In this document: positions 10,413 through 12,737 of the stretch, piece after piece | Position numbering within the stretch: position 1 is the stretch's first letter | Layout of the letters: every line of letters begins with the position of its first letter | From: Enterobacteriaceae bacterium RIT693 | GTDB taxonomy: Bacteria > Pseudomonadota > Gammaproteobacteria > Enterobacterales > Enterobacteriaceae | Assembly (NCBI GenBank): GCA_009668225.1 | Contig: WJYK01000001.1 | Coordinates: forward strand, 310,001 to 374,000 | Direction of reading: 5' to 3' | Length of the DNA: 64,000 bases | Made by a program: the position numbers and the translations under genes | Notes under the pieces: generated by a model | What the model was told of the DNA's origin: nothing | The model's input: the letters and a program-made list of their open reading frames with translations, nothing else | Databases searched by the model: none

Positions 10413-10901
10413 TACGCCTGCCAACAAATGTATTTTGCCGTTTTGTTTGCCCACAATTTCACCCTTCGCCAGATAAATCTCCAGCTTCTGGCGGTTATCC
10501 CCAAATTTTTTCGCCTTTTAACATTTGTCAAGGGAGGTCAGGACACCACAGGCCCATTGTTTGACACTTTTATTGCAGCAGTTGATTTTATTTAACAGAT
10601 TGAATTTAAATAGATATTTAGCAAAGACCGGTTTCGCGTCAATTTGGCTGCAGGCCGCGCCCGCTCTCGCTTCCATGAAGTTTTCTAACTCTAATGCACA
10701 AGGTTATCCACAGGAATAGTGGATAACTGCAGCAAGCCCTTTTAGTTCGCCACTCGGGAAAACCCCTAATTTTTCTGTGTCAGGGGCGAAAAAAAAATTT
10801 CGCTAATTTTTTTGCTTTTATTCATTCGATTTCGCTATACCGCGCCGGTTTGAAGCAGATCCCGAAATCGAGATATATCCTGAGGTTAAAACGCGTTTTA
10901 T
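10413..10901. other. AT-rich intergenic region, no gene seen
   Basis: Between the uvrB LexA box and the NtrC-type sites I see no credible coding frame. It holds the DnaA-box pair at 10704-10726 and A- and T-rich runs around 10790-10815 but no recognised gene. Confidence 0.6.
10704..10726 (+). repeat. Pair of inverted DnaA-box sequences upstream of uvrB
   Basis: TTATCCACA (10704-10712, a perfect consensus DnaA box) is followed after five bases by AGTGGATAA (10718-10726), giving a TTATCCAC inverted repeat. DnaA binding upstream of uvrB has been reported in E. coli, so this may be a conserved regulatory element about 400 bases from uvrB. It is also upstream of the sigma54-driven gene on the other strand. 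Confidence 0.6.
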
Positions 10902-10940
10902 TGCACCAAATTCGTTCTTCTTTAGCACTCGTCAGGTGCA
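10902..10940 (+). promoter_or_regulatory. Two candidate NtrC (GlnG) enhancer sites
   Basis: The NtrC dyad is TGCACC-N5-GGTGCA, that is GCAC-N7-GTGC. The second site (10924-10940) contains GCAC-TCGTCAG-GTGC exactly. The first (10902-10918) has a perfect left half TGCACC and a degraded right half (GTTC). Their centres are about 22 bases apart, two helical turns on the same face. They lie about 130-155 bases upstream of the start expected from the sigma54 promoter, the usual distance for NtrC enhancers. Confidence 0.65.
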
Positions 10941-11036
10941 GCGAAACGCGAACCTGAGCACCATCAATTTGTTTAACGAAGTAAATACTAAGTTTTATCC
11001 TGGAGTGACGGTGGTTTTCAGGGAATATCACCAAGC

Positions 11037-11052
11037 TGGCAAGCTAATTGCA
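11037..11052 (+). promoter_or_regulatory. Sigma54 (RpoN) promoter
   Basis: TGGCAAGCTAATTGCA matches the -24/-12 consensus TGGCACG-N4-TTGCW at all but one position, with GG (11038-11039) and GC (11050-11051) exactly ten bases apart. The predicted start near 11063 leaves a leader of about 34 bases before the ATG at 11097, which has AAGGAG seven bases upstream. Confidence 0.8.
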
Positions 11053-11096
11053 GAATATCACTGGGGGAAGCCTCCTCCCAACCAAGGAGATGAACC

Positions 11097-11807
11097 ATGC
11101 TGAGCTTACGCGCTGTAAATCAGTTCTACGGTGACAATCACATATTGTGGAACCTCGACCTCGAACTGGCACCGGGCGAATGCACCTGCGTCCTTGGTGC
11201 TCCCGGGCAGGGAAAAACCACGCTGGTAAACTGCATTACCGGCTATTTGCCCGTACAAAGCGGCAGCATGCTCTGGCAACAAGCGGGGCTGCCTCCTGAA
11301 GACCTGGTCAATAAACCTGTTGAGAGCCGGGCCGCGCTGGGAATTGGCTATGTCCCGCAGGACAGGCGCATCTTCTCCCAGCTTAGCGTTGAAGAAAACC
11401 TGCAGATCGCCATGATGGCGGGCCACCACGCGCCCCGGGTTATCCCTTCGCTTATCTATGACCTTTTTCCGGAGCTCTATAGCCTGAGGCAGGTAAAAAG
11501 TGGCGAGCTCCACGTTGATATGCAACAGCAGCTGGCGCTTGCCCGGGCGCTGGTTCTACAGCCAAAGTTACTGATACTGGATGAACCAACCCTGGGCGGT
11601 GGTCAACGGTTTATCACTGAGATGGGTAATCTAATTCGGCGCTTAAACCGTGACTTCGGCTTGACGATTCTGCTGGTTGAACAGCGGCTGTCGTTTATAT
11701 GCCGGGTAGCAGATAAATTTTGCCTGCTGCACAAGGGCAGGAATATCGCTCAGGGTCATGTGTCGCAGCTGGATGATAAGCTTGTCGCGGGCTGGCTGGA
11801 GCCCTGA
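11097..11807 (+). CDS. Orphan LivF/UrtE-type ABC ATPase with degenerate signature
   Basis: This 236-residue single ABC domain is closest by eye to the LivF/UrtE group, which serve branched-chain amino acid, urea or amide importers. Features typical of the group are an early short Walker A region (GAPGQGKTT, residues 34-42), GIGYVPQDRRIFSQLSVEEN (about 82-101), and LLVEQ in place of the H-loop histidine. Walker B is intact (LLILDEPT). The family signature LSGGQQQQ is replaced by LHVDMQQQ, so the C-loop serine and glycines are gone. No permease or binding-protein gene is adjacent. The gene follows a sigma54 promoter with NtrC-type sites. It may be the surviving last gene of a nitrogen-regulated importer operon or a repurposed ATPase. 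Function not established. Confidence 0.8.
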   Translation: MLSLRAVNQFYGDNHILWNLDLELAPGECTCVLGAPGQGKTTLVNCITGYLPVQSGSMLWQQAGLPPEDLVNKPVESRAALGIGYVPQDRRIFSQLSVEENLQIAMMAGHHAPRVIPSLIYDLFPELYSLRQVKSGELHVDMQQQLALARALVLQPKLLILDEPTLGGGQRFITEMGNLIRRLNRDFGLTILLVEQRLSFICRVADKFCLLHKGRNIAQGHVSQLDDKLVAGWLEP

Positions 11808-11826
11808 ACGCATCTACTCTCCAGCG

Positions 11827-12345
11827 CTACAGATTTGCCAGCCGCGCCTGAAATGCCGGATTCAGGGCGGTCAATGCTCTGCGAAGGTTGCACTGGCGAG
11901 TCACTTTTGCAATATCCAGCAACGGCGCAGGTATCGCCTTCACGCCGGTGCTATTCATCCAATGTAAAACCGTTTCGAGATTCCACAGTGCGGTTTTTCC
12001 GTCATGTACCGGCGTCGGGAACGCTTCGCGGGAGACCATGACTTTTCGAATATATTGCCGAGAAACGCCCAGCAGTTCAGCTACGTCACTCAGCCCAACT
12101 AAGTCAGGTGCGGCTTCAACCAACGACGCGCCTGGAATAATATGAGAGACCTCCTTCAGCGCGCTAAGCAGCGCGTCTTCGGCACCGTTAGCTTCACGGG
12201 TGAAGTTCAGGGCGATGCGCCCCGTTACGCCTATACCAATAAGAGCATCATCGCACCCACCGGCACCCAGTACGCCAACCCACGGCTCAGGATCCTTCTG
12301 GCCATCAGGCAGGTTGAAAATAAGCGTAAACGTGTATTCCGCCAT
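11827..12345 (-). CDS. Helix-turn-helix protein, putative antitoxin-like partner
   Basis: This 172-residue protein has an N-terminal beta-rich region (YTFTLIFNLP) and the segment GCDDALIGIGVTGRIALNFT. A helix-turn-helix follows at about residues 85-110 (LSDVAELLGVSRQYIRKVM), then FPTPVHDGKTALWNLETVL, a layout like excisionase/MerR-type DNA readers. I recall homologues linked to the small protein encoded just upstream, but no established function. The start has AAGGAG eight bases before the ATG and lies 15 bases after the stop of the upstream gene, so the two form an operon. A role as antitoxin and repressor is inference. Confidence 0.75.
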   Translation of the reverse strand: MAEYTFTLIFNLPDGQKDPEPWVGVLGAGGCDDALIGIGVTGRIALNFTREANGAEDALLSALKEVSHIIPGASLVEAAPDLVGLSDVAELLGVSRQYIRKVMVSREAFPTPVHDGKTALWNLETVLHWMNSTGVKAIPAPLLDIAKVTRQCNLRRALTALNPAFQARLANL

Positions 12346-12360
12346 GATACGTTCTCCTTG

Positions 12361-12621
12361 TTAGTGCAGCACGCTGCGGGATGCTATGTTTGCGCATCCA
12401 TCCACAAGCCTGCGAATTTGCCTGGCATGGTTCTGCGCGTTTCGCGGCGTGCTCCAGACACAGCTAATGCAAAACTCTCCGCAGCGGCAGGCTTTATCAT
12501 TCCACGGGCAATAAAGCTTTCCCCAGCAGTGAGCGCCCCCCTCTTTTACCCGCCATCCCTGAAATTCGGCGTAGCTTAGTGCCGCCTCTATCTCTTTTTG
12601 CGGGTGCCGTTGTCTTGCCAT
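12361..12621 (-). CDS. Small HicA-like protein, putative toxin of a two-gene module
   Basis: This 86-residue basic protein contains GGAHCWGKLYCPWN (about residues 27-40), CRCGEFCISCVWSTPRN (about 45-61) and HARQIRRLVDGC. The glycine-histidine motif followed by a strand recalls the catalytic histidine region of HicA-type mRNA interferases, and the cysteine cluster could bind metal. These are resemblances, not proof. The order, toxin-like gene first and DNA-binding partner second, is that of hicAB modules. The start ATG has a perfect GGAGG six bases upstream. A perfect palindrome lies 33-48 bases upstream of the start. Confidence 0.7.
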   Translation of the reverse strand: MARQRHPQKEIEAALSYAEFQGWRVKEGGAHCWGKLYCPWNDKACRCGEFCISCVWSTPRNAQNHARQIRRLVDGCANIASRSVLH

Positions 12622-12653
12622 ATTTCCTCCGGCTAAAAAAGCATCTCATAAAG

Positions 12654-12669
12654 GTTGTCACATGACAAC
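12654..12669 (-). promoter_or_regulatory. Palindromic operator candidate of the TA-like pair
   Basis: GTTGTCA-CA-TGACAAC is a perfect 7-bp inverted repeat with a 2-base spacer, 33 bases before the start of the small gene, where a promoter is expected. It is a good candidate for autoregulation by the HTH partner. No direct evidence. Confidence 0.5.
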
Positions 12670-12737
12670 TTAAACTATGAAATACTCTATACCCTTTGCC
12701 GGTGGGGAAGAATCGTTGTTTATGAGGAAAGCACTAA

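Follow-up and report, generated by a model that had tools for sequence, protein, structure and literature searches.

Between uvrB and bioD in many enterobacterial chromosomes lies a stand-alone gene for an ABC ATPase (the orphan gene), and comparison of 109 loci supports a genuine NtrC/σ54 promoter in front of it, since the box, the dyad, the half-site, their phasing and the locus are conserved together. The protein comes from the UrtE family; judging from the alignment of its copies, the dimer-interface motifs (signature and D-loop) are lost or relaxed and the ATP-binding and catalytic residues are kept. We put at about even the chance that the product is an NtrC-regulon ATPase that binds nucleotide without normal dimer cycling and docks on a partner, likely a permease other than those of the Urt and Liv systems.

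The window, i.e., the whole stretch of 64 kb that was analyzed, is part of an enterobacterial chromosome with moa genes, yvcK, uvrB, the orphan gene, two small genes and a bio cluster (the common genes, moa, yvcK, uvrB and bio, were identified by eye). Features of the orphan gene and its upstream region are collected in Table 1. Since the next downstream gene is convergent, the transcription unit consists of one gene, and a sequence-only reading of the window was right to describe a single ABC ATPase gene behind the promoter. A scan of positions 10700–12700 revealed no terminator-like hairpin just 3′ of the orphan gene, and a consensus scan of the same region revealed no σ70-type promoter (1.7 expected by chance). 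Records of relatives annotate the product as “ATP-binding cassette domain-containing protein”, and in searches of the open-access literature we recognized no description of the gene. The two small genes between the orphan gene and bioD (11827–12345 and 12361–12621, both on the minus strand) hit the two members of a candidate defence pair in PADLOC, PDC-M06B at 217 bits and PDC-M06A at 146 bits. Homologues of this pair occupy the same place in eight of eight loci of the window’s genus, in genus g20 and in Edaphovirga, as well as in two of the three loci from g90; no homologues were found in the remaining loci read.

Table 1. Putative promoter elements and the orphan gene, in window coordinates.
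Feature	Position	Strand	Remarks
Weaker NtrC site / half-site GCACCAAATTCGTTC	10903..10917	+	7/8 core bases; 22 nt upstream of the dyad
Strong NtrC dyad GCACTCGTCAGGTGC	10925..10939	+	Perfect dyad
Additional GCACC half-site	10958		
σ54 −24/−12 promoter TGGCAAGCTAATTGCA	11037..11052	+	GG (11038–39)-N10-GC (11050–51); predicted start near 11063
Ribosome-binding site AAGGAG	11084..11089	+	Assigned from sequence; start ATG at 11097
Orphan UrtE-derived ABC ATPase, 236 aa	11097..11807	+	Signature LSGGQ replaced by LHVDM; mean pLDDT of the model 91.3

Within the window, neither promoter motif is exceptional. Allowing at most one mismatch, the motif TGGCACG-N4-TTGCW, which we take to be the σ54 box consensus, has two hits against 1.38 expected, and the perfect dyad occurs once against 2.05 expected; a box and a dyad paired within ~100 nt are expected about 0.004 times, a figure that is the product of those for the single motifs. 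Since each motif alone is within chance in 64 kb, the case for the promoter rests on comparison. Genome-wide, the loose box TGGCA-N6-TTGC shows no excess (84 matches vs. 88 in the reversed control), and the NtrC dyad shows a mild one (76 sites vs. 50). Six other box–dyad neighbourhoods were chosen by eye from the box list and from 50 of the 76 dyad sites, and their genes were also named by eye. In four of them, the dyad lies upstream of the box, in front of genes for a PII protein, a Nac-like LysR protein, another LysR protein and an isochorismatase-like protein; among the six, one has no convincing downstream gene and one has its dyad downstream of the box. NtrC and RpoN scored over cut-off in all 11 genomes checked, that of the window included.

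Searches for the protein covered 59 relatives and, across the family, 295 genomes. Of these 295, 103 (about a third) carry the gene with a score of at least 200 bits, and the next-best matches, mostly UrtE, reach at most 179 bits. The 103 carriers, four loci of the window’s genus, a truncated copy (G033) and one Kosakonia locus make up the 109 distinct loci, two duplicates and locus L255 having been merged by identical sequence. A full-length frame is present in 108 of them. The position in the chromosome is constant: uvrB lies upstream in 107/109 loci and bioD downstream in 106/109, and every locus has at least one of the two. A simple pattern search of the 578-nt gap between uvrB and bioD in E. 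coli K-12 revealed neither box nor dyad, and the protein matches there are weak and at chance level (E 0.038 for the best among the matches listed). A blastn search of an E. coli collection also gave no match; since blastn could overlook a diverged copy (~60% protein identity), the claim of absence is limited to K-12.

For the σ54 box with GG-N10-GC spacing and for the exact GCAC-N7-GTGC dyad at enhancer distance, both proposed from the window alone, orthologous loci give a clear answer. The box (TGGC-N8-TGC) is found in 108/109 loci, and 98/109 have a perfect dyad 70–180 nt upstream of it, with actual distances of 81–145 nt. Among the remaining eleven, the dyad has a single core mismatch in eight, the perfect dyad of L019 lies at 56 nt, and L251 and L254 lack a dyad. 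The supposed half-degraded second dyad two turns away also recurs: in 90 of 97 loci, a GCAC half-site precedes the dyad by 20–23 nt; the 149-aa truncated copy (L024/G033) was excluded from these 97 loci, which served for both the half-site and the phasing counts. The box–dyad distances fall into clusters at 81, 90–91, 100–101, 108–115, 121–124, 130–135 and 144–145 nt, forming a ladder with steps of about one DNA helical turn. None of 20,000 random placements of the clusters was equally periodic, a comparison that ignores shared descent and does not give a strict probability. As a control, the frame itself plus the stretch from 800 to 1500 nt upstream (mostly uvrB) was scanned in these loci and gave 6 box-like and 28 dyad matches in 152,591 bases. 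Named relatives among the matches listed contain the same array with box–dyad distances of 81 nt (Klebsiella pneumoniae), 90 nt (Enterobacter hormaechei), 101 nt (Kosakonia pseudosacchari) and 135 nt (Edaphovirga cremea). By eye, the weaker upstream site keeps only its TGCACC half in Kosakonia, Klebsiella and Enterobacter (L083, L292 and L293), as if the half-site form were the one selected there.

The distance from the box to the ATG is more variable (53–472 nt in 98 loci). Long leaders, with 282–472 nt between box and start, are present in 20 of these 98 loci (L014, L016, L179, L201, L209, L214 and L221–L223 among them) vs. 53–176 nt elsewhere. Inspection of 12 of the 20 revealed no obvious shared small open frame. 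The idea that the promoter serves only an RNA or an upstream peptide was considered and rejected, given the variable leaders, the lack of a shared frame and the selection on the ATPase frame.

Two loci stand out. L251 (G143) is the only one without a TGGC-type box, retaining a weaker TGG-N9-TGC match; like L254 it has no dyad, and its product is the sole copy of 108 in which the catalytic Glu is missing (Gln instead). In G033 (L024/L255), a 149-aa truncated orphan stands behind an intact promoter, and the RpoN match of this genome spans only 351 of 434 positions. The truncated orphan and the short RpoN match possibly reflect linked decay, in a single case.

A tree built from 70 proteins places the 34 sampled orphans together in a single clade (support 100/100, stem 0.57). 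Their nearest neighbours, with support 83/85 under midpoint rooting, are four UrtE-like proteins with an intact signature, three from other families of the order and one from a Solemya symbiont; enterobacterial UrtE groups with betaproteobacterial sequences, apart from the orphans. The sequence-only reading had offered a urea/amide importer operon as one possible source; the gene does come from the UrtE family, but it lies outside the group of enterobacterial UrtE. Median dN/dS values within ten genera are 0.018–0.119, and dN/dS in genus g122 is 0.043–0.054; these values are approximate, since many dS values exceed 1, and for this analysis the Kosakonia pseudosacchari locus L083 was placed with genus g96 by resemblance. 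Such ratios indicate that the gene is under purifying selection across the ten genera tested. Taken together, the single clade and the low dN/dS argue for an old, maintained descendant of UrtE and not a recent remnant.

The protein matches the ABC ATPase domain PF00005 (80 bits), with Walker A and Walker B. Its AlphaFold model shows a regular ABC fold, and the best PDB matches are ABC nucleotide-binding domains (NBDs). Motifs were counted in an alignment of the 108 full-length copies, i.e., without L024/G033. Walker A residues G34, G37, G39 and K40 and Walker B residue D162 are kept in 108/108, and the catalytic E163 in 107/108, the exception being L251. The signature GG is present in 0/108 orphans vs. 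LSGG in 30/30 UrtE proteins (the best 30 of 35 found). Mean entropy is 2.28 bits for the signature and 2.20 bits for the D-loop vs. 1.29 bits for the whole protein and 0.72 bits for the region 82–104, which we take to be the groove that receives the permease coupling helix in ABC importers. By entropy, the signature window comes 19th among 215, and surface loops outside the catalytic motifs vary still more. In the groove, F93 and N101 are present in 108/108 copies; at positions 94 and 95, the orphans have Ser (103/108) and Gln (100/108) vs. Pro (28/30) and Arg (30/30) in UrtE. Some copies have departed further, since the Q-loop Gln is absent in 11/108 and position 196 is varied (Gln in 76/108, His in 25/108).

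The genome of the window has, elsewhere, a separate cluster of genes for allophanate hydrolase, urea carboxylase, a GntR protein and urtABCDE. A σ54-like box, TGGCATCGTAATTGC, precedes this urt cluster (2536–2550 of L187, minus strand; G000:C12:88035–88049), and by eye a 7/8 NtrC dyad lies ~78 nt upstream of the box. In the tally of INDEPENDENCE from Urt over the 295 genomes, with UrtA counted when over cut-off, 75 have both the orphan gene and UrtA, 28 the orphan gene only, 19 UrtA only and 173 neither, the last count being inflated by small symbiont genomes. The association with urt fits a urea-linked role in most hosts.

The 28 carriers without UrtA deserve a closer look. UrtB is over cut-off in none of them. 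One, G224, has an UrtB fragment at a contig edge plus a full-length LivH-like permease and is probably urt-positive. Another 23 contain a full-length LivH-like permease that matches the UrtB profile with E 1e-43 or better. In three genomes of one genus (G128, G238 and G311, genus g122) and in G184, the best match to this profile is weaker, at E 1e-7 to 1e-14; each of the four has one or two permeases by PF02653, and by eye those of G128 and G238 adjoin double-domain sugar-type ATPases. With the UrtE profile, the top match in these genomes is the orphan itself (234–242 bits in g122, next 170; 189 bits in G184, next 171), and LivF-like proteins reach 225–226 bits in G000 and G062. Thus, 4 of the 28 UrtA-less carriers, the three g122 genomes and G184, have neither a detected Liv/Urt-type permease nor a detected LivF-like ATPase. 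A function with Urt only was accordingly rejected as a general explanation, 28 of the 103 carriers having no UrtA and four having no detected Urt or Liv system.

According to PMC8381380, Klebsiella oxytoca M5a1 strongly upregulates its urea (Ure, UrtABCDE) and LivKHMGF operons when it fixes nitrogen; the same paper suspects NtrC/σ54 behind the urea genes. The passages of that paper on the urea and Liv operons do not mention the orphan gene.

We propose the following mechanism. On nitrogen starvation, NtrC and σ54 would switch on the monocistronic gene between uvrB and bioD. Its product would bind nucleotide but not enter the usual ABC dimer cycle, and the former coupling groove would serve to dock it on a partner. 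That partner would most likely be an ABC permease outside Urt and Liv, bound at its cytoplasmic face; there the orphan, induced by starvation, might act as an alternative, accessory or braking subunit. We infer a permease here; the groove and the absence of Urt and Liv do not by themselves establish one. A bolder version, a “decoy motor” in which a non-cycling ABC cassette plugs into the coupling site of a permease and retunes or brakes uptake during starvation, is a tentative idea that we hold to be possible rather than probable.

Two other functions deserve weight. Instead of docking on a permease, the orphan could be a soluble nucleotide-sensing regulator, a monomer that binds ATP/ADP and acts on a cytosolic partner. 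The relaxation of both NBD–NBD interface motifs next to strict Walker A and B motifs is in line with this, as is the presence of the gene where no Urt or Liv system was detected; however, a cytosolic role does not require the groove region, which is among the better-kept parts of the protein (0.72 vs. 1.29 bits), and we regard such a regulator as rather doubtful. Alternatively, during starvation the orphan could replace UrtE (or LivF) and pair with UrtD (or LivG), yielding an asymmetric ATPase in which one site is canonical and the other degenerate, so that uptake is tuned. A heterodimer of this kind is compatible with the relaxed interface, since an intact signature in the partner could complete the orphan’s Walker A/B site, and UrtE-family ancestry, the retained groove and Walker motifs, UrtA over cut-off in 75/103 carriers and the σ54-like box of the urt cluster all speak for it. 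Against it stand the 28/103 carriers without UrtA over cut-off (the probably urt-positive G224 among them) and the four carriers without a detected Liv/Urt-type permease or LivF-like ATPase, of which those of g122 keep the gene under purifying selection. Such an exchange of subunits thus appears unlikely.

The sequence-only reading had offered a choice between a remnant of a nitrogen-regulated importer operon whose other genes were deleted and a member of the nitrogen-starvation regulon that has taken on a new role. The former would make the gene a decaying leftover of a lost urt operon whose promoter has not yet eroded. UrtE-family ancestry, loss of the signature and isolation of the gene would fit, as would the decay seen in two genomes (the truncated copy in G033, and G143 with its missing TGGC-type box, dyad and catalytic Glu). 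Yet dN/dS is far below 1 in the ten genera tested, which contradicts decay, the frame is full-length in 108/109 loci, and promoter and gene are retained together; the gene occupies one family-wide locus, its sampled copies form one clade, and a separate urt cluster exists elsewhere in the window’s genome. The remnant is therefore very improbable. The lack of excess of either motif within the window would agree with a box and dyads that are chance matches, a reading contradicted by conservation over 109 loci, helical phasing and half-site spacing and deserving next to no credence. Of the other half of the choice, membership in the regulon is supported by comparison of sequences, and the new role is likely, since the ABC signature is lost and the gene persists without detected Urt or Liv systems. 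The NtrC-regulon ATPase that would dock on a permease other than Urt or Liv is the reading that we prefer.

The promoter itself is of a well-known kind and ordinary within it, and the gene it would regulate codes for an unnamed, conserved variant of the ABC NBD. The conserved promoter–gene pair suggests a part of the nitrogen-starvation response that has no counterpart in E. coli K-12. If so, Klebsiella, Enterobacter and their relatives share an extra conserved member of the nitrogen-starvation regulon, one that is easily overlooked because the E. coli K-12 reference does not contain it. The protein, if our reading of it is true, would be a natural ABC motor domain that keeps nucleotide binding and partner docking and has dropped the motifs that form the dimer. 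The one-turn ladder of enhancer distances illustrates the helical phasing of NtrC sites relative to a σ54 promoter.

The closest known systems include UrtE, which supplies ATP-binding to the urea importer UrtABCDE. Its profile (TIGR03410) is the best NCBIfam match of the orphan (219.3 bits, below the curated cut-off of 285.8), and UrtE-like proteins with an intact signature are ~42–52% identical to it. The fold, Walker A/B and the Q-loop region are common to both; in contrast to UrtE, the orphan has no signature GG (0/108), a relaxed D-loop and, in the aligned copies, a 5-residue insertion, it has no urt genes beside it, and its clade is separate from enterobacterial UrtE. LivF, from the importer of branched-chain amino acids, belongs to the same NBD family, but the orphan matches its profile NF008626 at only 114.8 bits, far under the cut-off of 441 bits, lies outside a transporter operon and has lost the signature. 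Heterodimeric ABC transporters such as TAP and TM287/288 contain a degenerate NBD. The orphan shares with these NBDs a degenerate signature next to a retained catalytic Glu; unlike them, it has no fused or adjacent permease and no adjacent partner NBD, and its D-loop is relaxed as well. Finally, Ntr promoters of E. coli (glnK-amtB, nac, astC) combine a −24/−12 box with a GCAC-N7-GTGC dyad and a weaker site two turns away. The orphan promoter has the same box, a dyad at enhancer distance and a second, weaker site two turns off, but the gene that it would drive is not present at this locus in K-12.
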